NCBI RefSeq assembly: GCF_029338175.1
Contig: NZ_CP119862.1
Coordinates: 4,124,839 to 4,188,838, forward strand
Origin: Citrobacter enshiensis
GTDB taxonomy: Bacteria; Pseudomonadota; Gammaproteobacteria; Enterobacterales; Enterobacteriaceae
Reading direction: 5' to 3'
Length of the DNA stretch: 64,000 nucleotides
Shown here: piece by piece, positions 7,296 to 37,294 of the stretch
How positions within the stretch are numbered: position 1 is the first letter of the stretch
Layout of the letters: each line of letters opens with the position of its first letter
Program-made: the position numbers and the translations under genes
Notes under the pieces: generated by a model
Database searches by the model: none
Told to the model about the DNA's origin: nothing
The model's input: only the letters and a program-made list of their open reading frames with translations

Positions 7296-8131
7296 GGTTA
7301 TCCCTTTCTCCTGCGTGGACGGGCCAGGCAGTCGTCTGGTCCTCTTTTTACAGGGGTGTAATCTGCGCTGTAAAAACTGCCACAATCCGTGGACGATGGG
7401 ACGCTGTAATGATTGCGCTGAATGTGTCTCTCACTGCCCGCACCAGGCGCTGAGTCTCGTTGCCGGGAAAGTGGTGTGGCAGACTGATGTCTGTAAGCAG
7501 TGCGATACCTGTCTGCAGATGTGCCCACAACACGCCACGCCGATGGCGCAGACGATGAGTATTGACGATGTATTACGTCATATCCGCAAAGCATCATTGT
7601 TCATCGAGGGCATCACCGTCAGCGGCGGCGAAGCCACAACGCAATTACCGTTTATCCTGCAACTGTTTGCCGCAGTCAAAGCCGACCCGCACCTGCGTCA
7701 TCTGAGTTGCCTGGTAGACAGTAACGGCATGTTGAGCGAAACCGGCTGGGAGAAATTACTCCCGCTGTGTGACGGGGTCATGCTTGACCTTAAAGCATGG
7801 GGTAACGCGTGTCACCAACGGCTCACAGGGCGGGATAATGTGCTTATTAAGCGCAGCATTATGCTGCTGGCAGAGCGCGGTAAACTGGCAGAACTGCGGC
7901 TGCTGGTCATTCCCGGCCAGGTTGATTATTTGCAACAGATAGACCCGCTGGCGGCATTTATCTCTACTCTGGGAAATGTTCCCATCCGATTAAATGCTTT
8001 CCACGCCCATGGAGTGTATGGCGAAGCCAGAAACCTGGCCGAGCGCGACGCCGGACGACGTGGAGGCCCTGGCGAGCGCCTTACAGGATCGCGGCGTGAA
8101 TAATCTGATTTTCCCGGCGCTGTATCTTTAA
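7267..8131 (+). CDS. yjjW: YjjW, radical-SAM glycyl-radical enzyme activase (one frameshift)
   Basis: This is the probable activating enzyme that installs the glycyl radical on YjjI. The radical-SAM CxxxCxxC motif is CNLRCKNC near residue 30. Two ferredoxin-type 4Fe-4S motifs follow: [12 protein letters not shown] and [12 protein letters not shown]. The start ATG at 7267 overlaps the yjjI end. An indel near 8030-8050 moves the true C-terminus ([12 protein letters not shown] at 8129-8131) to another frame; the original frame stops at 8103 with an unrelated tail. Corrected length is about 287 aa, as in E. coli. Confidence 0.92.
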
Positions 8132-13884: not shown

Positions 13885-14333
13885 TTACATACTTATAGGA
13901 AGTGCCATTATGACGGCGTCCTCACGCCCGTCCGCCAGTCGGATAATAGTTGCGGCGGATCGTTGCCTCGTTAAAGCCTAAGCTTTCATACAGCGCGATG
14001 GCGGCAACGTTAGAGGCGCGGACTTCCAGCCACAAACGTCAGAATGCCGCGTTTTTCCAGTTCATCGATGAGATGTTCCAGCAGTGCTCGTCCCAATCCC
14101 CGACGTTGAAAATCCGGGTCTACGGCAATATTAAACAGCGTCGCTTCATCCAGTACGACTTGCGTAATGGCAAAAGCCGCCAGCCTCCCGTCTACCGTCA
14201 ATTGATAGTTGAGGTAGCGCTCGCCCTGATTACTGGCAAAAGTGTGTTCGCTCCACGGAAACGCATGGGCGCGTTTTTCAATCTGAAAGGCTGCAGGGAG
14301 ATCAGTCGGATTGAGGGTAGAAATCGTGTTCAT
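13885..14333 (-). CDS. rimI: ribosomal protein S18 N-alpha-acetyltransferase RimI (C-terminal frameshifts)
   Basis: This GNAT acetyltransferase modifies the N-terminus of ribosomal protein S18. The start is the ATG at 14333 (MNTISTLNPTDLPAAFQIEKRAHAFPW), overlapping holD by 32 nt. The acetyl-CoA motif NIAVDPDFQRRGLGRALLEHLIDELEKRG is intact. After that an indel near 14035-14045 shifts the frame; the C-terminal RRNYYPT..DGREDA and ALPISM (TAA at 13885) are in other frames. Span is 449 nt against 447 for 148 aa. Confidence 0.92.
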
Positions 14334-14715
14334 ATGCGCAGATTTGTTGCCATAGTGCGGCGCGTGCCGTTGGGTTTGCCCGTAATTCATTAAACGCAGG
14401 AGTTGAGACCTGAGCGCCTTCCAGTAACAGCGGTTCTTCAGTGCCCAGCCGCCAGCTGTTGCAGCGACTCCCCTGCGGCAGCATCGTGACGCGGTCAGGC
14501 GTCAGTTGCAGTACCTGGTCCGGGCTGAGGGTCAGCGTGCGTAAAATATCGCTCATCAGCGGGTCGTTCAGCGCCGGTAAGTCCGCGGCAACCATGACCA
14601 GACGAACGTGCGCAGGAATTGAAATCGCGATCTCACCCTGCAGCGCACCAGGGCGACGCAGCGACCACTGCGTAATGCCCAATTGCTGTAACTGCCGGTC
14701 TCGTCGGGATGTCAT
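14302..14715 (-). CDS. holD: DNA polymerase III psi subunit HolD
   Basis: Psi bridges the clamp loader to chi and SSB. It is exactly 137 aa from the ATG at 14715 (MTSRRDRQLQQLGITQWSLRRPG) to the stop at 14302, as in E. coli, and intact. An in-frame upstream extension exists, but the family start is this ATG. The 3' end overlaps rimI by 32 nt, the same arrangement as in E. coli, so the two are translationally coupled. It is divergent from rsmC. Confidence 0.95.
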   Translation of the reverse strand: MTSRRDRQLQQLGITQWSLRRPGALQGEIAISIPAHVRLVMVAADLPALNDPLMSDILRTLTLSPDQVLQLTPDRVTMLPQGSRCNSWRLGTEEPLLLEGAQVSTPAFNELRANPTARAALWQQICAYEHDFYPQSD

Positions 14716-14816
14716 AGCGAAACGCTCCTGTCTGTCAGGGGCGCAAATATAGCAAATTCGTCGAAACTGCGCAACAAACAACTATATTCGCCGCCTGGAA
14801 CAATAGAGGAATTTTC

Positions 14817-15850
14817 ATGTCTGCTTTTACCCCGGCAAGTGAAGTCTTGCTGCGTCACAGTGATGATTTCGAACAAAGCCGTATTCTGTTTGCCGGAGAT
14901 TTGCAGGACGATCTGCCTGCCCGCTTCGAAAGTGCCGCCAGCCGCGTGCATACTCAGCAGTTTCACCACTGGCAGGTACTCAGCCGCCAGATGGGCGATC
15001 AGGCGCGTTATAGCCTGGTGGCGGAAGCCAGCGATGTCGCCGACAGCGACACATTCATCTACTACTGGCCGAAGAACAAGCCGGAAGCGCAGTTTCAGTT
15101 GATGAACATATTGTCACTGCTGCCTGTCGGCACGGACATTTTCGTGGTGGGTGAAAACCGTAGCGGTGTTCGCAGCGCAGAGCAGATGCTGGCCGAATAC
15201 GCGCCGTTGAATAAAGTCGATAGCGCGCGCCGCTGCGGCCTGTACCACGGTCGTCTGGAAAAACAGCCGGTCTTTAATGCCGACGCATTCTGGGGTGAAT
15301 ATACTTGCGAAGGGCTTACCATTAAAACCCTGCCAGGCGTGTTTAGCCGTGACGGCCTGGATGTCGGCAGTCAGCTTTTGCTCTCAACGCTGACGCCACA
15401 CACCAAAGGCAAAGTTTTGGATGTTGGCTGCGGCGCAGGCGTGCTGTCTGTCGCATTAGCGACCCACTCCCCGAAAGTGCGTCTGACCCTGTGCGATGTT
15501 TCCGCGCCTGCGGTTGAAGCCAGCCGGGCAACGCTTGCGGCGAACGGCATTGAAGGTGACGTATTCGCCAGCAATGTGTTCTCGGAAGTAACGGGGCGTT
15601 TTGACATGATCATCTCCAACCCGCCTTTCCATGATGGTGTACAGACCAGTCTTGACGCTGGCACAAACGTTATTCGCGGCGCCGTTCGTCATTTGAACAG
15701 CGGTGGAGAGCTGCGGATTGTCGCCAACGCCTTCCTGCCGTATCCGGAAAGTGCTGGATGAGATGTTTGGCTTCCACGAAGTCCATCGCACAAACCGGCC
15801 GCTTTAAGGTGTACCGCACGGTGATGACCGTTCAGGCGAAGAAAGCCTAA
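14817..15850 (+). CDS. rsmC: 16S rRNA m2G1207 methyltransferase RsmC (C-terminal frameshifts)
   Basis: RsmC methylates G1207 of 16S rRNA in the 30S subunit. It has duplicated methyltransferase-like domains; the C-terminal one carries SAM motif [17 protein letters not shown] (about residue 200) and catalytic [10 protein letters not shown]. The frame is clean from the ATG at 14817 to about 15750, then two extra bases shift it: [21 protein letters not shown] continues in other frames to AKKA, TAA at 15848-15850. Span is 1034 nt against 1032 for about 343 aa. Confidence 0.95.
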
Positions 15851-26562: not shown

Positions 26563-28862
26563 TTGTCTGAATTACTGTCCATCGCCCTGTTTCTCGCCTC
26601 TGTGCTGATTTATGCCTGGAAAGCGGGTCGTAACACCTGGTGGTTTGCAGCCACTCTGACGGTGCTTGGCTTATGTGTTGTCCTGAACATTACACTTTAT
26701 GCCAGCGACTACTTTACCGGTGACGGCATTAACGATGCGTGTGCTCTACACGTTGACCAACAGCCTGACGGGCGCAGGCGTCAGTAAATACCTTCTTCCG
26801 GGCGCGGGGATCGTTCTTGCGCTGACGCTGGTTTTTGGTGCGCTGGGCTGGATTCTTCGCCGCCGTCGGCACCATCCTCACCACGTAGGTTATAGCCTGC
26901 TGGCACTGCTGCTGGCGCTGGGTTCGGTAGACGCCAGCCCGGCGTTTCGTCAGATTACCGAACTGGTGAAATCGCAGTCCCGCGATGGCGATCCTGATTT
27001 CACGGCTTATTACAAAGAGCCGTCGAAAACGATCCCCAACCCCAAACTGAATCTGGTCTATATCTACGGCGAAAGCCTCGAACGCACCTATTTTGACAAT
27101 GATGCCTTCCCGGATCTCACCCCAGAACTGGGCGCGCTGAAAAACGAAGGGCTGGATTTCAGTCAAACCATGCAATTGCCGGGCACGGATTACACCATTG
27201 CCGGGATGGTGGCCTCTCAGTGCGGAATTCCCCTGTTTGCGCCCTTTGAAGGCAACGCCTCGGCATCGGTTTCGAGCTTCTTCCCACAAAATATCTGCCT
27301 TGGCGATATCCTGAAGAACTCCGGCTACCAGAACTACTTTGTTCAGGGCGCGAACCTGCGTTTTGCAGGTAAAGATGTGTTCCTGAAATCCCACGGCTTC
27401 GATCATCTCTACGGTGCCGAAGAGTTAAAAACCGTGGTCGCGGACCCAACGTATCGTAATGACTGGGGTTTCTACGACGATACGGTACTCGACGAGGCAT
27501 GGAAAAAGTTTGAAGAACTCTCTCGCTCCGGCCAGCGTTTCTCGCTGTTTACAGCTGACCGTCGCACACCCATCACCCGGATGGATTTATCTCAGCGCAC
27601 CTGCAACGTAAACGCTACGACTTCGACGCAAGCCCAAACCCAGGTCATTTAGCGCCGTCAGCTGCAGCCAGGAAAACATCGCCCAGTTTATCAATAGAAT
27701 CAAAGCATCGCCGTGGTTTAAAGACACCGTCATCGTCGTCTCTTCCGATCATCTGGCGATGAACAACACCGCATGGAAGTACCTGAATAAGCAGGATCGC
27801 AGCAACCTGTTTTTCGTTCTGCGCGGCGACCAGCCTCAGCAAGAGACGCTGGCGGTCAAACGCAACACGATGGATAAACGGCGCGACCGTGCTCGATATT
27901 CTCGGCGGGGATAACTTTATTGGACTCGGGCGCAGCAGCTTGTCCGGCGAATCCATGTCGCTGGTATTCCTGAAACATTAAAGAGAAAAGTTCTGGCGTG
28001 GAAACCCGACATCATCCGCTTGTGGAATTTCCCCAAAGAGATGAAAACGTTCACCATCGATCAGGATAAAAGCATGATCGCCTTCTCGGGCAGCCATTTC
28101 CGTTTGCCGCTGCTGCTGCGCGTCTCAAACAATCAGCGTTGAACCGCTGCCAGAAAGCGAATACTCCGCGCCGCTACGCTTTCAGCTGGCGGATTTCGCC
28201 CCACGCGACAACTTTGTTTGGGTCGACCGCTGCTACAAAATGGCGCAACTGTGGTCGCCGGAACTGGCGCTCTCCACCGACTGGTGTGTCTCGCAGGGCC
28301 AGTTGGGCGGAGAACAAGTCGTACAGCACGTGAACAAAGCACAGTGGAAGGCAAGACGGCGTTTAAGAACACCATCATCGATATGGAACGCTATAAAGGC
28401 AACGTAGATACGCTGAAAATCGTCGATAACGATATTCGCTACAAAGCGGACAGTTTCGTCTTTAACGTCGCCGGCGCGCCGGAAGAAGTGAAGCAGTTTA
28501 GCGGCATCTCTCGCCCGGAATCCTGGGGGCGCTGGTCCAACGCGCAACTGGGAGAAGAGGTCAAAATCGAGTACAAGACGCCGTTGCCCAAAAAATTCGA
28601 TCTGGTGATCACCGCCAAAGCCTACGGCGCGAACGCCGATCGCCCCATTCCGGTACGTGTGGGCAAAGAAGAACAGATACTGCGGTTAGGTAACGATGTC
28701 ACCACGACCACACTGCATTTTGACAATCCGGAAGCGGCCAGCACGCTGGTGATCGCGCCACCCGACCCGCAATCCACCAACGAGGGCAACATTCTGGGGC
28801 ACTCGCCGCGTAAACTGGGGATAGGTATGGTGGAAATCAAAGTGATCAATGCCGAAGGATAA
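26563..28862 (+). CDS. opgB: phosphoglycerol transferase I OpgB (frameshifted)
   Basis: OpgB is an inner-membrane enzyme that transfers phosphoglycerol from phosphatidylglycerol to periplasmic glucans. It starts at a TTG at 26563 ([23 protein letters not shown]), as in E. coli mdoB, and has several N-terminal membrane spans. The sulfatase/LtaS-like periplasmic catalytic domain begins [17 protein letters not shown], with [15 protein letters not shown] and [11 protein letters not shown]. Frame changes lie near 26740, 27560-27650, 27880, 27975, 28130 and 28345. Span is 2300 nt, about 8 longer than the 763-aa E. coli gene. Confidence 0.94.
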
Positions 28863-28966: not shown

Positions 28967-30439
28967 TTAATCCAGCGCTTTCACCGCCTGACGCATCCCC
29001 TGAACAGTATATTTTCCAGGGCGAGACCGTCACCTGGGCGGTAAGCCCTGGCAACAACGTTAAAGTCCTCGCCCCAATGCGCTTTATCGTGCTGAGTACG
29101 GGCATCGACCAGTTCCTGGTAACGTCAGATCTGCACCCACTACGCGGCCACAGCTGTTGATAGCGTGTGAGCCACTGGTTCATCGGTCCAGGAGCGGGAT
29201 ACGTCTCTCCCGCCGTTCGCCCCGGTAAAATGCAATCAGCGCCGCAAGCGCAAACGTCAGCCGCACGGGATAGGTATTGCTCTGCTGGCCTGCAGCAACT
29301 GAGGGCAAAATACGTGCGTGCGGAATTTCGTCATAGCCGTTGGAGCGCGATAGAGAGTAGCTGATGGCGGATATACGGGATTCTGGGAAACGTCCTTGTC
29401 ACCGCATCGGCAAATTCACGCAGGTGTCAGCGGCGGGCAGAGTCCAGGGACCGGAATAATCTCCTGGTGAATCGCCTTTTCCACAAAGCGACGCACATCC
29501 TCGTCCTGCATCGCCTCGCCGACAGTATCCAACCCGCACAGCCACGCCACCAGAACCAGTGCGGTATGCGCGCCGTTGAGAATGGCGACTTACGCTCTTT
29601 ATAACGGTTTGATGTCGGCAACAATGCCGAATATTCAGCGAACTTTTCGTTAATTTCAGCGCCTCTGCCAGCCAGGCCGGTCCCTGGATCACAAACAGAT
29701 AAAATGCTCGGCGGTGTCGAGAAACGCATCGTGATACCCCAGCTGTGCTTCCAGCGCTGGCGCCTCCTCGTGCGGATAGCCGGTCACGATCCTGTCCACC
29801 AACGTGGAGCAAAATGTGTTTGCGGTTTCCAGGCCAGTCGAGAAACGCCGGAGACAACTGACCCACTCCTGCGCATTAACGCTGAATTACGCCTTGAGTG
29901 GCATCGCGTTATAGTCCGATCAGTTCGCAGGGGGAATCATCACCCAGCTTTGTCTGGCGCGCCGTTGAAGTGATTAAAACGCTCCAGCAACAGACGTGTC
30001 AGTTTCGCCGGGAAACTCACCGGCGGGGCATCATCGATACTGTCGCCTGGGTGATAGCCGATCCCCGCCTCAGTGGTGTTAGAAAACACAAAGCGGATGT
30101 CAGGGTTATGCGCCAGCGCCAGGTACCCGGCAAAATCCTGATACGGGTTGATCTCGTTATTCACCGAGCGGATCAGACGCGCGTCGCTGACGGCCTCGCC
30201 CTGCTCATATCAGGCCACGGATCACCGTGGTGTACAGTCCATCCTGGGTATTGAGCGACGGTGGAAAATCAGTGGTTTATAGGACGGACAAGGGTGATGC
30301 CCGCCTGCAGATCCGTTGTCTCATTGAGAACATCCGGCTGCCAGTCTACAAACGCCCGCAGAAAATTGCCTTCGCCAAACTGGATCACTTTCGTCGGGTA
30401 GTTGTGGCCAGGAAAATCCTGTCGATTCAATGTTTTCAT
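28967..30439 (-). CDS. uxaB: tagaturonate reductase, UxaB family (heavily frameshifted)
   Basis: UxaB reduces D-tagaturonate to D-altronate with NADH. Recognisable pieces are [26 protein letters not shown] (ATG at 30439), [27 protein letters not shown] (about 30120), [26 protein letters not shown] and a C-terminus ending in RQAVKALD (TAA 28967-28969). At least eight frame changes occur across 1473 nt, against 1452 for the 483-aa E. coli protein. It begins 13 nt after lgoD on the same strand, so it would carry out the step that follows L-galactonate oxidation. It could be a true pseudogene, but error density in its neighbours is similar. It may be a second uxaB copy, so the symbol denotes family. 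Confidence 0.82.
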
Positions 30440-30452
30440 TGCTATATCCCTA

Positions 30453-31475
30453 TCAGAAAGTAATCACGCCTTTGATAAGCTCGAGGTTGTTAACCACATC
30501 ATGTTCGTAGATCTCCGCCATGCGTGGTGAAGGGATAGCGGTGCGTCAACATCATGTCTGCGGTCAGCTTACCTTCCTCCATCAGCTGCCCTACTTTGGC
30601 GAAATCCTCCGGCGTGGCGTTACGACTGCCCATCATGGTGGTCTCTTTTTTGTGAAACTCAGGGTCGGAAAACTGCAAGTCCCCCTTAAACAGCCCAACG
30701 AAAACAATGCTACCGCCATGGCGAATCAGGTTAACGCTGTTATTCATCGCATGCTGATTCCCCGTCGCATCAATAACCTTTTGCGCCAGGGAGCCGCCAA
30801 ATTGCGCGCGTAGCTGTGCGTCAAAATCATCGGCAGACGGATCAATCACCGGAAGTTCCAGCCGAGAGGTCACATGCTCCCGACGGGCCAGGCTGGTATC
30901 AGCGACCACCACCTGCGCGCCGTCGGCTTTAGCGATGGCCGCCGCCCCCAGCCCTAACGGACCTGCGCCCACCACCAGTACCTGCTCGCCAGCCGCAATC
31001 GCCGCCCGACGTACCGCATGCGCGCTAATGGCATAGGGCTCAATCAGTGCTGCCGCCTGCGGATCAATACCGTCCGCCGCCAGCAGGTTAGTCGCAGGTA
31101 CAGACAAATACTCGCTAAAGCCGCCATCCTGATGCACGCCAATTACCGAAATTTTCTCGCAGCAGTTGGTACGCCCGCTGTTACACGCCGGACATTGCTG
31201 ACACGCCACGTAGGGAATCACTGCGACCTGTTGACCCATTTTCAGATGCGAAATATTTTTACCTAACCCGGCAATTTCGCCACATATTTCATGCCCAACA
31301 CGCGGGGATAACTGAAAAAGGGTTGATTGCCTCCCCAGGCATGAATATCGGTACCACAAATCCCTACGGATTTAATTTTTATTAATGCTTCCCCTTCACC
31401 AGGAATAGGAATTTCACGTTCTTCCCAATTTAATTTCTTAGGTTCCTGGCAAATCAGCACATTCATCGTTGACAT
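30453..31475 (-). CDS. lgoD: L-galactonate 5-dehydrogenase LgoD (frameshifted)
   Basis: This zinc-dependent medium-chain dehydrogenase oxidises L-galactonate to D-tagaturonate. The start is the ATG at 31475 ([57 protein letters not shown] holds the catalytic zinc Cys). The structural-zinc Cys cluster is [15 protein letters not shown]. The Rossmann motif [15 protein letters not shown] is intact. Indels near 31285 and 30520 shift the frame; the C-terminus is [10 protein letters not shown] with TGA at 30453. Corrected length is 340 aa. It is divergent from lgoR and followed by the uxaB-like gene. Confidence 0.94.
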
Positions 31476-31614
31476 GATTCAACTCTCCTGTTTTTCGTTG
31501 CATCAGATATCGATGAAAATAAAAATATCGAAGAGACAGGAAACGTAATTTGTGAATGCCGACGCATAAAAATGTTTTAAATCGGGTTTTAATACGCGCA
31601 AAAAGGAGAGACCA

Positions 31615-32558
31615 ATGAGCCGCTCGCAAAATTTACGTCACAACGTCATTAACCAGATGATCGATGATATGGCTCGCGGCCATATCCCCTCCCCGCTCCC
31701 CTCACAAAGCGCACTGGCGGAGATGTACAACATCAGCCGTACTACGGTGCGCCATATGCTGAGCCATTTAAGCGAATGCGGCGTACTGACACCGGTTGGC
31801 AGCGACTATGTGATCGCCCGTAAACCCAATAATGACGACGGTTTCGCCTGCACCACCGCCTCGCTGGCTGAGCAAAACCGCATTTTCGAGCACGCCTTTT
31901 TCACCATGATTAACCAACGCCAGCTACGCGCAGGCGAGACATTTTCCGAACTGCAGCTGGCGCGCGCAGCCGGCGTCAGCCCGGTCGTTGTGCGGGAATA
32001 TCTTTTAGAAATTCGGGCGTTACAATCTGATTATCAGCGAACGACGTGGTCCTGTGCGTTATGCAACAGTTCGAGTCAACGCTATGCCGGAACAGCTTTT
32101 CCGAAATACGGGAAATGCTGGAGACCCCCACGCCCCTGCAACACTTTCTCAATCTGCCGGTTACGGGATATCCGCTGGCAGAAAGCGCGGAGATTTACTC
32201 GATCGTCCACCGGCGCATTACGCGACAACCATCAGCGACAACTATCGCATGTTTTCCGTGCTGGACGGGACTTTCATAATCTGATTCTCAGCGCCGCCGA
32301 AAATGTCTTTTCGATCAATCACTGGAGATTATCTCTGTTATTTTTCACTTTCACTATCAATGGGATGAGAGCGATCTCAAACAAAGGAATATCGTCGCCG
32401 TCAATGAACATATGACCATTCTCAGCGCCCTCATCTGTCGCAACGACCTCAGCGCCACAGCCGCATTACGTCAGCATCTGCAACACCGCCCGGCAGACCA
32501 TGATCCACTCCATCAATACGACGAGCAGCCACTCTGTGAGATTTTAAAAACCGATTAA
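31615..32558 (+). CDS. lgoR: GntR-family regulator LgoR (C-terminal frameshifts)
   Basis: This is the probable activator of L-galactonate genes. The N-terminal winged HTH is SQNLRHNVINQMIDDMARGHIPSPLPSQSALAEMYNISRTTVRHMLSHLSECGVL. A second GntR-like segment (QLRAGETFSELQLARAAGVSPVVVREYLLEI) follows, then an FCD-type helical ligand domain. From about 32015 the frame changes repeatedly (near 32045-32060, 32270, 32315, 32480), ending at TAA 32556-32558. E. coli YjjM/LgoR is about 304 aa. Confidence 0.9.
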
Positions 32559-32757
32559 AAACAGCAAATCATTACCGTAGCCACAATTCCTTAATAAAAA
32601 TAACTATCCATTAATAAGACACTTTAGGCTCTGATAAACATTTTAAGACAATCAATACGCATAATAATAAATAGTTTAGAAACTCTGTAATACATCCCGG
32701 AAAACCCGGGCAAAATAATAACATCCTCAGTACCTACTAAAAAAACGGAGAGTAATA

Positions 32758-33765
32758 ATGAGTCTGATGTCTAAAAAAAGAAATACGTTACTAGCATTCG
32801 CTGTTGGCTCTATACTCGCCACTGTCTCATTAGCAATTCTGCGATAGCCGCTGCCGAATATACGTTGAAAGTTGCCTACGAAAATAATCCAGGAGAACCT
32901 TTTGATAAGGCGATCCGTGAATGGGCACGCTTATTTAATGAACAAACCGGCGGTAAAGGCGAGCTCATTGCTTATCCCAGTTCACAATTAGGCTCGAAAA
33001 AGGATGTCATTGAGCAAATGAACAAACTGGGTAGTCCACTGATGACCCTCGCCGATGGCGCATTCTTCTCTGACTATGTGCCTGATTTCGGCATTATGTT
33101 TGGTCCTTACGTCGGCAATAGCTATAAAGATATTTTTAAACTCAACCAGTCAGACTGGTACAAGGATCTGGAAAACAAACTGGATGCTAAAGGTCTGCAC
33201 ATCGTTTCTAAAGACTGGCTCTACGGTACACGCCATATGCTGACCACCAAAATGGTCACCAAACCGGAAGATTTGAAAGGCCTCAAAATTCGCGTACCGA
33301 ACAATCGCATTCAAATCGAAGGCATGAAAGCGATGGGCGCAACCCCAACGCCACTCCCTCTCGCCGAAGTCTACACCTCGCTGAATCTGAAAGTTATTGA
33401 TGGCGCGGAAAACCCGATTCCGGTGTTGTACGGACAAAAACATCATGAAGCGGCTAAATACCTGATCCTCACCGGCCATGTCGAAAACGTGACTAACCTG
33501 GTGATGGGAAGCAATACCTACAAAAAACTGCCGCCGGAAATTCAGGCCGCACTGGTGAACTCCCGGCGATCAAGCAGGGAAATACTTGACTGAGCTCGTT
33601 CAGAAGGAAGAACAAGAACTGATTGAGAAGATGAAGACAGAAGGCGTCACTGTGGTGGAAGTTGACCGTAATCTGTTCCGCGAAGCGTCAAAACCGTTCT
33701 ACACAAAATTCCCGGAATGGACGCCAGGATTGTATGAAAAAACACAGGAAATCATTGCACAGTAA
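32758..33765 (+). CDS. TRAP transporter periplasmic binding protein, DctP family (frameshifted)
   Basis: The substrate-binding component of a TRAP transporter. The start is the ATG at 32758 after GGAG, with a signal peptide (MSKKRNTLLAFAVGSILATVS). The mature protein reads AAEYTLKVAYENNPGEPFDKAIREWARLFNEQTGGKGELIAYPSSQLGSKKDVIEQM; the substrate-carboxylate Arg region is KGLKIRVPNNRIQIEGMKAMGATPTPLPLAEVYTSL. Indels occur near 32842 and 33565. Given its neighbours, the likely ligand is L-galactonate or a related hexonate; this is inference. E. coli K-12 uses an MFS protein (LgoT) at this locus. Confidence 0.9.
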
Positions 33766-33833
33766 CGGAGAACACGCGCAGCGCACTGCCTGCGCGTTTC
33801 CCTTTCCCTGAAAAAAGTATCGCCCGTATAGGA

Positions 33834-34320
33834 ATGACTATGTTTCGGTTTCTCAATAAATTCAGCGATATTCTGGCCTGCCTGCTGGCAGGTGGGATTG
33901 TGCTCATTACGGTCGGTGGCCGTCCTGATGCGCCTGGCTGCTTAACGCCCCACTGATCTGGGTGAGGAAGCGCTGATCATCTGTTACATCTGGTTGATTA
34001 TGATCGGTGCGGCCTCAGCAATGGGCCATCGTATGCACGTCAGTATTGATGCCTTCACCTCCATGCTGCCGGAAAACTGGCGTTTATCCTGCGCCATCAT
34101 CACCCACATGATTGCCATTGTCTCACTGTCTACATTTGGCTATCTCGGCTATGAGCTGTCACTTATCGCCGTCGATAAAATCACCCCTATTCTTGGGGTC
34201 TCCTATCTGTACATCGATTTTGCTGTGCCGACAGGCGCTGGGATCATGGTGATGTTTTGCCTACAACACCTCTGGCAAGACATTCAAAAACTGAAACGCA
34301 GGGAGGTCGTATGTCAGTAG
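33834..34320 (+). CDS. TRAP transporter small permease, DctQ family (frameshifted)
   Basis: A four-helix small membrane subunit of the TRAP transporter. The first part (MFRFLNKFSDILACLLAGGIVLITV) starts at the ATG at 33834 or at the ATG at 33840. Indels near 33920-33965 lead to the main frame (IICYIWLIMIGAASAMGHRMHVSIDAFTSMLPE), ending KLKRREVVCQ with a stop at 34320 inside the dctM start. Confidence 0.88.
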
Positions 34321-35590
34321 CGATCGCGTGTATTGTCTTATTGTTTCTGTTTATTCTGAATACGCCGATATTCATCAGCGTACTGGTCGCAATACTGACT
34401 TACTTTTATATGGCAGGCGACATTTCACCGCTGATCGCTGTTCAACGTATTATCGGCGCTGGAGAAAACGTCACTTTACTGGCAATCCCGTTCTTTATTC
34501 TGCTTGGTAACCTACTGAATTACACCGGTATTACGCACCGTATGTTGCGATTCACCGGTGTGCTCTCCGGCCACTATCCGGGTGGGCTCGCCCAGTCCAA
34601 CGTCCTGCTCAGTACTATGATGGGAGGTCTGTCGGCATCTAACCTGGCTGACTGCGCGATGTTGTCAAAAATGCTGGTGCCGGAAATGACTAAACTCGGT
34701 TACAGCAGAAGTTTTTCTACCGCCGTCACCGCTGCCGGGTCGCTTATCACGCCGATCATCCCCCCGGGAATCGCCCTGATCATTTACGGTTTTGTTGCCG
34801 ATGTCTCCATCGGAAAAATGTTTATGGCCGCGATCGTTCCGGGACTCTTGTGCTGCGTCGCACTGATGTTCACGATCTATTTAATCTCGAAAAAACGCGG
34901 CTATCTCCCCGCCAGAGCCCATGGCCCGACATGCCGCGAGCTGTGGGAGGCGGGTAAAGGGCGCCACCTCAGCATTAATTTTTGATTCTGGTGATTATCG
35001 GTGGGATCCGTTTTGGGATCTTTACCCCAACAGAAGCAGGCGCAATTGCCGTTGTGTTTGTGATTATTATCGGAGCCGTTTTCTATCGTGAAATGACGAT
35101 GAAAGATATCGCGGCATCGTTACTGGAAACGGCGCGCTCAACCGCAAGTGTAATGCTCATCATCATGACCTGCTCAGCGCTGGCATGGGTGTTAACGAAC
35201 GAACAGATTGCGCAGGATCTGGCCGTGGTGATGACTGGATTCTCTGATAATCCTTACATCTTCTTGCTGATTGTGAACCTGGTTCTGTTGTTTCTGGGGA
35301 TGTTTATTGAAGGGAATGCCGCCATCATCGTACTGGTTCCGCTATTAATGCCAACCGTACGCTTGCTGGGCATCGATCCGATTCACTTCGGCGTGATGAT
35401 GATCCTCAACCTGGCCATCGGTTGCCTGACGCCACCCATGGGAACGGTAATGTTCGTTGCAACCTCCATCACGGGAACAAAAATTGCTGATTTTCTGCGT
35501 GAAGTGCTACCGCTGTTAGCGGCACTGATTGTCGTGTTGCTGATGGTGACGTTTATTCCGGCTCTGACAACCTTCCTGCCCGCGCTGTAA
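34311..35590 (+). CDS. TRAP transporter large permease, DctM family (one frameshift)
   Basis: The ion-coupled channel subunit, about 425 aa with 11-12 membrane spans. The start is the ATG at 34311 (MSVAIACIVLLFLFILNTPIFISV), with GGAGG just upstream, overlapping the small permease by 10 nt. Family features include GGLAQSNVLLSTMMGGLSASNLADCAMLSKMLVPEM and ITPIIPPGIALIIYG. An indel near 34980 moves to the second frame (GIRFGIFTPTEAGAIAVVF), which is clean to the end. Confidence 0.92.
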
Positions 35591-35632: not shown

Positions 35633-37294
35633 TTAAAACGTTTCCCAGTTCTCACCGGCATCGGTAACAGCGGCTTTGCGCGGCGGTACCGGCGCAGAAA
35701 CGCTTTTCGCGGCGGCAACGTCACGAGAACGCTGTTGTTCCTGCTGAATACGGAATACGGCGACTGCCTGGGTCAGACGACTGGCTTGTTCCTCCAGCGC
35801 GGCTGCGGCAGCGGCGGACTCTTCCACCAGCGAGGCGTTCTGCTGCGTCACGCGATCCATCTCTGCGACAGCCAGACCGACCTGGTCGATACCGCGACTC
35901 TGCTCATCAGACGCAGAAGCGATTTCGCCCATGATATCGGTGACACGGGTGACCGCGTTGACAATCTCATCCATGGTTTCGCCCGCGCTCTCAACCAGCG
36001 TCGAACCGACATCCACACGACTGACCGAGTCTTCAATCAGGCTCTTAATCTCACGCGCGGCCTGAGCACTGCGTTGCGCCAGATTGCGCACTTCCCCGGC
36101 AACCACCGCAAAGCCACGGCCCTGTTCGCCCGCACGCGCCGCTTCTACCGCCGCGTTCAACGCCAGAATGTTAGTCTGGAAAGCAATACCGTCGATCACG
36201 CTGATAATATCGGCAATTTTCTGCGAACTGGAGGCGATATCACGCATGGTTTGCACCACGTTATCCACCACTTTACCGCCCTTCTGCGCGGTTTCTGAGG
36301 CGCTCAGCGCCAGATGGCTGGCCTGACGGCGTTCTCGGCGTTCTGTTTCACGGTGGCCGTCAGTTCTTCCATGCTGGCCGCAGTCTCTTCCAGGGAGGCA
36401 GCCTGCTGTTCAGTACGGGAAGAAAGATCGTTGTTGCCCATCGCAATTTCGCTGGCACCGCTGTAAATCGCGTTAGCGCCGTTGCGCACATCGCCGACGG
36501 TATGCACCAGCTCGCTCTGCATGTGGCGCAGGCTTTCTGCCAGTTGCCCCATTTCGTTAGAGCCTTCTACATCAATACGCTTCACCAGATCGCCACTGGC
36601 GATATGACGAATGCTCTCGATCAGGCGGTTCATCGGTTCGATTAAAGAACTTAATGCCGAACCAGACGGCGACGATCACCAGCAGCACCGCGATTAACAC
36701 GCTAACCAACACCCACATCGCCTGGCTGTAGGAGCCTATTATTGTCTTCAACCGCAATGTCATACAGGTGATCGTTCTGCTGCATATAGGCCGTATACGG
36801 TTTTTCAAAACCGTCCTGATAGCCCTGCGTCGGTTGATCAAAGAACTCGTTGATCTTACCCGAGCCCAACAACTGGATCAGTTCCGCCAACGCATTGTGA
36901 TAGATATCGTAGCTACCGTTTGATCTCGACAGCCGCAGCCTCGCTCTGACGCGGATCGCGCGCAGTGCTTCGTAATCGGCCCAGTGTTTTTCCGCCTGCT
37001 TCAGGGACGTGCTCGCAATCTGCATCAGATCGACAACGGTGGCGCCGCTGCCGATATTGTCTGATCCATCATGTAGCGGATACCCGCCCGGTTGAGGGTA
37101 TTACGTGTTTGTAGCAGCGCAACCCAGCTGGAGTTCAGCGTGGACTGCTGCTGGCGAATGGTCTGTAGAACGGTGAAGTTTTCTTTGTCATTTTTCAATG
37201 AGTTAAAGAACAAACCGCCCGAGGTCAGTTGTAAAAGGCCAAATATTGCCAACACCAGCAGTAAGCTGGTCACAATCTTAATTCGTTTTAACAT
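35633..37294 (-). CDS. tsr: serine chemoreceptor Tsr (frameshifted)
   Basis: A methyl-accepting chemotaxis protein for serine and repellents. The start is the ATG at 37294 ([23 protein letters not shown], first membrane helix). The periplasmic domain is 36900-37220, the second helix is near 36670-36720, followed by HAMP ([31 protein letters not shown]). The signalling hairpin tip is [45 protein letters not shown]. It ends in NWETF, the CheR/CheB docking pentapeptide. Frame changes lie near 36290, 36640, 36735, 36940 and 37060. Span 1662 nt against 1656 for E. coli. Confidence 0.94.

Follow-up and report, generated by a model that had tools for sequence, protein, structure and literature searches.

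A predicted L-galactonate locus of Citrobacter enshiensis with TRAP transporter genes in the place of lgoT and a candidate LgoR operator

Layout of the lgo Locus

What does a tripartite ATP-independent periplasmic (TRAP) transporter do at a locus where Escherichia coli K-12 has the major facilitator superfamily (MFS) symporter LgoT, and how did it come to stand there? The question is raised by a 64-kb stretch (the window) of the 4.9-Mb chromosome of Citrobacter enshiensis, in which the genes between opgB and tsr are ordered uxaB-lgoD and lgoR-dctPQM, with uxaB and lgoD on the minus strand and lgoR, dctP, dctQ and dctM on the plus strand. We are fairly confident that this is a variant enterobacterial lgo locus for the uptake and catabolism of L-galactonate, in which the TRAP genes dctPQM replaced lgoT between lgoR and tsr and a copy of uxaB was added behind lgoD. 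At the level of sequence, the gene identities, the synteny, the mutual exclusion of LgoT and DctPQM in the genome sample, the shared motif and the location of UxaA elsewhere are established. The features, in window coordinates, are as follows.

28967..30439, minus strand: uxaB, tagaturonate reductase, the copy linked to lgo; frameshifted in the assembly, copies of sister strains intact
30453..31475, minus strand: lgoD, predicted L-galactonate 5-dehydrogenase; 89% identity to K-12 LgoD (intact relative)
31573..31593, minus strand: candidate LgoR operator 1, in the lgoD-lgoR intergenic region, direct repeat ATTAAAACCCGATTTAAAACA
31615..~32547, plus strand: lgoR, GntR/FCD regulator with two predicted tandem winged helices; frameshifted in the assembly, read on intact relatives
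32543..32563, plus strand: candidate LgoR operator 2, TTTAAAAACCGATTAAAAACA, at the end of lgoR, ahead of dctP
32758..33765, plus strand: dctP, TRAP solute-binding protein, predicted binder of L-galactonate (or L-fuconate); frameshifted in the assembly
33840..34320, plus strand: dctQ, small TRAP membrane subunit, Pfam DctQ (intact relative); frameshifted in the assembly
34311..35590, plus strand: dctM, large TRAP membrane subunit, Pfam DctM and NCBIfam dctM with 418 bits (intact relative); two indels relative to strain R56
26563..28862, plus strand: opgB, left flank, synteny marker outside the module, common to the E. coli lgo locus
35636..37294, minus strand: tsr, right flank, synteny marker common to the E. 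coli lgo locus

In E. coli, lgoD, lgoR and lgoT fill the opgB-tsr interval and lgoT occupies the position of the TRAP genes, so that the synteny agrees with the first-pass annotation of this DNA, which had put the TRAP genes in the place of LgoT. The gene order of the window was found again in Citrobacter sp. R56 and Citrobacter sp. Awk 4, its closest named relatives, and in C. braakii, and is therefore not a chance gathering of genes. Between the stop of lgoD and the start of uxaB lie 13 nt (30440-30452). The same gap separates the two genes in Awk 4 (L026), C. braakii (L028), R56 (L031) and the sampled genome G383 (L167), that is, in all four linked copies checked; the positions of the genes and the close spacing of uxaB behind lgoD thus stand as first described. 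Statements on the proteins rest on intact relatives (P0001-P0006), all from Awk 4.

Over 340 amino acids the LgoD protein shares 89% identity with K-12 LgoD, against 34% with RspB, and it has the same neighbours, opgB and lgoR, as expected of an orthologue, although none of the 25 NCBIfam matches listed reached its cut-off. By analogy with K-12, LgoD would oxidise C5 of L-galactonate. The linked UxaB (P0002) is 72% identical to K-12 UxaB and 27% to UxuB. It scored 741.6 bits in the NCBIfam model of tagaturonate reductase (cut-off 359) but only 102.1 bits in that of fructuronate reductase (cut-off 603), which confirms its earlier designation as a UxaB-type tagaturonate reductase. The transporter genes gave Pfam matches to PF03480 (250 bits, P0001), PF04290 (100 bits, P0005) and PF06808 (370 bits, P0006), and dctP, dctQ and dctM lie together and in the same order in the window, albeit frameshifted; from this gene order an operon is predicted.

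The predicted working of the locus is as follows. LgoR would control both flanking gene sets, lgoD-uxaB and dctPQM, each from a direct-repeat operator of its own. DctP would capture L-galactonate, and perhaps L-fuconate too, in the periplasm and DctQM would import it using an ion gradient. LgoD would then oxidise L-galactonate to D-tagaturonate, which the linked UxaB would reduce to D-altronate, and UxaA, KdgK and Eda, encoded elsewhere (presumably so for KdgK and Eda), would complete the breakdown. The ligand, the function of the operator, the sign of control and the ion coupling are what we infer here, and the reaction steps are carried over from the characterised K-12 homologues. Uptake of L-galactonate followed by two enzymatic steps, as proposed in the first-pass annotation, remains probable. 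Its description as a more self-contained module is weak, since the only copy of the altronate dehydratase UxaA is encoded away from the locus (G000:C1:588119-589603); the genome also has a second, intact UxaB (G000:C1:2509118-2510563).

Exchange of the Transporter

To see how widely the transporters alternate, 392 genomes of the GTDB family were searched with cut-offs of E ≤ 10−140 for LgoD, E ≤ 10−180 for LgoT and E ≤ 10−90 for DctP. LgoD was found in 58 genomes, of which 42 had LgoT, seven had DctP, none had both and nine had neither; LgoT or DctP without LgoD occurred in none of the 392. The distance from lgoD was 624-7004 bp for LgoT (at most 1341 bp in 40 of the 42) and 1242-12708 bp for DctP (at most 1509 bp in five of the seven). 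LgoT and DctPQM are thus mutually exclusive in the sampled genomes, which at the level of sequence amounts to an in-place swap of the transporter. Two points temper this. The p-value for zero overlap among the 58, 3.8 × 10−5, assumes independent genomes and ignores their relatedness, and the cut-offs miss divergent copies, as in G178, a genome counted as having neither transporter that carries a divergent LgoT. Some genomes of the sample are also the named ones and are not independent of them (G377/L027, G223/L031, G078/L030, G159/L029 and G001/L026).

Besides Citrobacter, the TRAP family is present in an Escherichia sp., Buttiauxella, Leminorella and Providencia. The locus of Escherichia sp. 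MOD1-EC7003 (L027) indicates how the genes may have been exchanged. Its OpgB shares 99% identity with that of E. coli. In 60-nt bins, its lgoD and the first half of its lgoR match K-12 DNA at 87-100%; the lgoR of this assembly has a frameshift near residue 117. From about position 7400 of the locus, inside lgoR and ahead of the TRAP genes, the identity drops to 58-82%. It is likely from this alignment that recombination inside lgoR brought the TRAP genes into this strain. Its dctPQM genes had no match in 5,426 E. coli genome records at the sensitivity of megablast, which diverged copies would escape.

The linked uxaB has a history of its own. Genome G383 (L167, 1522-6609) has LgoT together with a uxaB 13 nt behind the lgoD stop, and C. 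amalonaticus (L030) is the converse, with the TRAP genes and no linked uxaB. As each carries one without the other, the gains of uxaB and of the TRAP genes arose separately, and we reject their arrival as a single cassette. In a phylogenetic tree, the lgo-linked UxaB proteins of Awk 4, R56, C. braakii and G383 formed one clade (100/100), placed beside the main enterobacterial chromosomal UxaB with support of only 80/92, while UxaB near the TRAP genes in Leminorella and Providencia belonged to another lineage.

Six of the nine genomes with neither transporter were examined (G178, G039, G130, G253, G320 and G065; G183, G267 and G390 were left out). In G039, G130 and G253 (loci L161, L163 and L164 4666-10317) an ATP-binding cassette (ABC)-type sugar-binding protein and a glycoside hydrolase of family GH88 are encoded beside lgoD-lgoR, with a GH28 enzyme as well in G253, and G320 (L165 835-6485) resembles G253 by the layout of its open reading frames alone. 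A strong LgoR-type site lies upstream of the ABC/hydrolase set in G253 and G320. These gene contents hint at a pectin-derived source of the substrate in such loci.

LgoR and Its Candidate Operator

LgoR of the TRAP locus is 82% identical to K-12 LgoR, and its GntR and FCD domains score above the curated Pfam cut-offs, which places it in the GntR/FCD (FadR) subfamily. According to passages of PMC6390033 and PMC11748552, LgoR is a sensor of (L-)galactonate in E. coli, in one of them an activator, and a table of PMC6055005 has LgoR (YjjM) as a hypothetical transcription factor.

The protein is longer than the type. With Pfam at E ≤ 1, two GntR stretches and the FCD domain were detected in five of five LgoR proteins, the best GntR stretch lying at 87-143 in the protein of L056 and near 21-63 in the others; at 0.001 the second stretch was not counted and at most one was found. 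The AlphaFold model (mean predicted local distance difference test score, pLDDT, 84.7; predicted template modelling score 0.64) has winged helices at 2-67 and 84-149 and an all-helical part at 154-304. Solved FCD regulators with one winged helix cover about 84-302 of LgoR (3sxy at 88-298, Z 20.4), and the winged helix of BusR (7b5y) aligns to 2-81 with a middling Z of 8.8; in profile comparison the best stretch of NanR was 13-74 and that of 3sxy 82-286. Because one-helix FCD structures fit the rear and the helices of BusR and NanR the front, LgoR has, in the model, the appearance of a whole FCD regulator preceded by one more winged helix. None of the 50 structural matches listed covers both winged helices, and among the titles and opening lines of abstracts searched no tandem-winged-helix GntR/FCD protein was recognised.

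A motif was first spotted by eye in aligned intergenic regions, where two stretches, one ahead of lgoR and one at its stop codon, are conserved in K-12 and TRAP genomes alike. The motif set comprised 43 of 44 regions, namely 39 of 40 from the genome sample along with K-12, L026, L028 and L032; G363 was dropped as it had no LgoR match (of the 58 genomes with LgoD, 40 entered by region and G001 as L026). A matrix trained on the lgoD-lgoR site only (31 of the 43 genomes, 12 distinct sequences) was applied to the untrained interval between lgoR and the transporter genes. There its best match exceeded all 40 shuffles per genome, a control that preserves single-base composition only, in 42 of 43 genomes, and in 42 of 43 it started at most 46 nt from the lgoR stop; six of the 43 were TRAP genomes. 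The second site overlaps the stop codon of lgoR in most genomes, but in 11 its start lies 13-46 nt beyond the first stop-codon base, and coding conservation therefore does not explain it. When the whole 4.9-Mb genome was searched with a degenerate pattern, copies without mismatch were exactly two, the candidate operators listed above; one further copy had two mismatches, and with the reversed control pattern two copies were found at no more than two mismatches.

The consensus is a 21-bp direct repeat, with agreement at seven of nine positions at offset 12 and seven of ten at offset 11. As a palindrome, the usual form for GntR dimers, it agrees at only four of 21. The motif is likely, judged from these sequence comparisons, to be the LgoR operator, and the two winged helices may each read one half-site of the repeat. 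No LgoR motif was found in the open literature searched, including excerpts of PMC4494728, PMC6055005, PMC10743746, PMC11748552 and PMC6390033.

Several observations speak against an operator of this kind or its generality. In the TRAP genome of Awk 4, the sole failure of the 43, the best match scored 13.9 against a shuffle maximum of 14.8; the second site of Buttiauxella lies 416 nt beyond the lgoR stop, and that of G229 scores only 0.1. The first site was not recognisable at up to five mismatches in six of the 43 genomes, though their second site was strong or fair, and the distant TRAP loci L046, L048 and L049 have LgoR relatives and no such site. With a combined matrix, Leminorella and both Providencia had sites ahead of uxaB, and one Providencia (L033) also ahead of dctP. 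In the 890 kb of loci L035-L091, among which are LgoR relatives, no site reached a score of 12; in the form modelled here, the motif is thus confined to the enterobacterial group.

To a broader picture we would give even chances: LgoR would be an unusual GntR regulator with two tandem winged helices that reads a direct repeat without palindromic symmetry (half-sites resembling TTAAAAC, 11-12 bp apart). The operator would be a fixed socket beside which uptake modules of several classes were exchanged: LgoT of the MFS type, DctPQM of the TRAP type and, in a number of genomes, pectin hydrolases together with a binding protein of the ABC type. In one Escherichia this would have happened by recombination within lgoR.

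Ligand of DctP

To get an idea of the ligand, DctP was compared with solved structures. Its nearest relatives by sequence were 4ovt (46% identity, 300 bits) and 4o8m (43-44%, 275 bits), the others among the matches listed being at most 34% identical; in the frame of the window the scores were 234 bits for 4ovt, 223 for 4o8m, 135 for the next entry and 97 for 4pbq. The DctP model (mean pLDDT 88.9) has the fold of TRAP binding proteins and superposed on 4p1e with Z 40.0 (root-mean-square deviation 1.4 over 295 residues), on 4o8m with Z 39.2 (2.6 over 300) and on 4ovt with Z 38.8 (2.6 over 301). The predicted ligand is L-galactonate, perhaps also L-fuconate, which is 6-deoxy-L-galactonate.

The following points count against L-galactonate as the principal substrate. 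The motifs YENNPGEP, SKKD, RVPNN and YGQK of DctP are nearer those of 4ovt than of 4o8m, and we take 4ovt to be the complex with L-fuconate and 4o8m that with L-galactonate. Many LgoD-family matches at distant loci are only 28-44% identical, so that other substrates are possible there, and K-12 LgoD reportedly also serves L-gulonate, going by the title of work by Kuivanen and Richard from 2014.

A transporter mainly for L-fuconate, or for both acids with L-galactonate as a co-substrate, seems to us unlikely but is the best of the alternatives. The proximity of DctP to 4ovt suggests it, and the Ochrobactrum-type locus L054 encodes a short-chain dehydrogenase (14132-14902) of a class that also serves L-fuconate breakdown. 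Dual specificity for L-fuconate and L-galactonate is stated, with credit to Vetting 2015, for a Chromohalobacter TRAP protein in a passage of PMC5507952. The enzymes of the window, LgoD and UxaB, are however those of L-galactonate, and no enolase-superfamily dehydratase or FAA hydrolase (E ≤ 10−10) was found among the ten proteins scanned, eight of L054 and two of L053.

An L-gulonate module like GulPQM-GulD-UxuB of Haemophilus influenzae (L-gulonate to D-fructuronate to D-mannonate; pathway shown in PMC5788505) shares the architecture of dehydrogenase, reductase and TRAP transporter, and the reported use of L-gulonate by K-12 LgoD would fit it, but we rejected it as very improbable, since the reductase adjoining the dehydrogenase is of the UxaB and not the UxuB type (72% against 27%), LgoD shares 89% of its residues with the K-12 protein and DctP lies far from the L-gulonate protein 4pbq (97 bits against 234 for 4ovt and 223 for 4o8m).

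State of the Linked uxaB

In the assembly of the window, uxaB is broken. Over a 17-kb stretch aligned with R56 (96.2% identity, 522 mismatches) there were 112 gap openings, 103 of them single-base and 25 of them deletions in the window, the remainder being insertions. They are patchy, with 39 indels in uxaB, 17 in lgoR, 15 in opgB, six in tsr, three each in dctP and dctQ, and two each in lgoD and dctM.

If uxaB were a decayed pseudogene in this strain, the locus would perform the first step only. In favour of this, its indels far outnumber those of dctM and lgoD, and the second UxaB gene in this assembly reads through without an internal stop. Its neighbours lgoR, opgB and tsr are affected too, however, and uxaB is intact in R56 (L031), Awk 4 (L003/L026) and C. 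braakii (L028). Because 35 of its 39 indels are single-base (31 insertions) and 39 of the 55 substitutions counted (those more than three columns from a gap) fall on the third codon position, the frame breaks of uxaB and the lgo genes look like assembly or sequencing error, and real decay was judged highly unlikely.

Between 24000 and 42000 of the window, opgB, uxaB, lgoR, tsr and others are broken in patches by single-base indels, mostly insertions; this is an assembly-quality problem that touches every gene call there.

Known Systems and Distribution

The locus is real, well explained and in part described already in other bacteria. According to the first-pass annotation, no TRAP binding protein had been assigned L-galactonate; this was wrong, as the Chromohalobacter protein is in print, and passages of PMC5507952 also describe lgoD/uxaA/uxaB/TRAP loci. 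With both published, the premise of novelty fails and is corrected here. To judge from our searches, the novelty lies in the in-place swap, the shared candidate operator and the predicted double winged helix of LgoR, and no description of an lgo-TRAP locus in Citrobacter was found in the open literature searched.

The closest known systems include lgoD-lgoR-lgoT (yjjNML) of E. coli K-12, which has the same site between opgB and tsr, LgoD 89% and LgoR 82% identical, and the candidate operator flanking lgoR, but which uses the MFS symporter LgoT and has no linked uxaB. The lgo loci of Leminorella and Providencia (L029, L033 and L034) likewise have LgoD, LgoR, UxaB and an orthologous DctPQM (DctP 73-85%), with LgoR-type sites ahead of uxaB in all three and ahead of dctP in Providencia L033; they differ in that uxaB stands ahead of dctP and is of a different lineage, and Leminorella also links uxaA. 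The lgoD-uxaA-uxaB (or uxaF)-TRAP loci of Halomonas and Chromohalobacter, likened here by their description in passages of PMC5507952, combine an L-galactonate 5-dehydrogenase, a tagaturonate reductase and TRAP transporters, the latter stated there to be non-orthologous to each other; in the window uxaA is unlinked and LgoR is the enterobacterial regulator. The H. influenzae pathway, demonstrated experimentally (PMC5788505), is like the window in having a TRAP transporter, a dehydrogenase and a reductase, and unlike it in taking the UxuB/mannonate branch with the distant binding protein 4pbq. Genomic region 21 of E. coli BEN2908, again likened by description (excerpts of PMC12928451), pairs a YjjN-like gene and TRAP genes, which its authors call hypothetical, with a UxuB partner.

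Among named genomes we found 66 DctP loci, at which tblastn (E ≤ 10−20) detected DctM in 66, LgoD-family genes in 61, and UxaB-family and UxaA-family genes in 38 each. All three of LgoD, UxaB and UxaA were present in 31, an LgoR relative in 17 and LgoT in none. From these counts, the pairing of TRAP transporters with enzymes of the L-galactonate type extends beyond the enterobacteria, although the TRAP loci with distant homologues (LgoD 28-44%) may, on their sequences, use other acids.

The pathway is ordinary sugar-acid catabolism, and the locus is best seen as a neat variant of systems already known. The swap is instructive: at a fixed locus one transporter gave way to a non-orthologous one while the regulator and its candidate operator were kept. 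It also allows a likely substrate to be proposed for this TRAP family and provides a prediction of the binding site of LgoR (YjjM). In Buttiauxella warmboldiae (L032 8447-10686), a second, distant DctP/DctM pair (30-35%) lies on the opposite strand just past the lgo TRAP genes.

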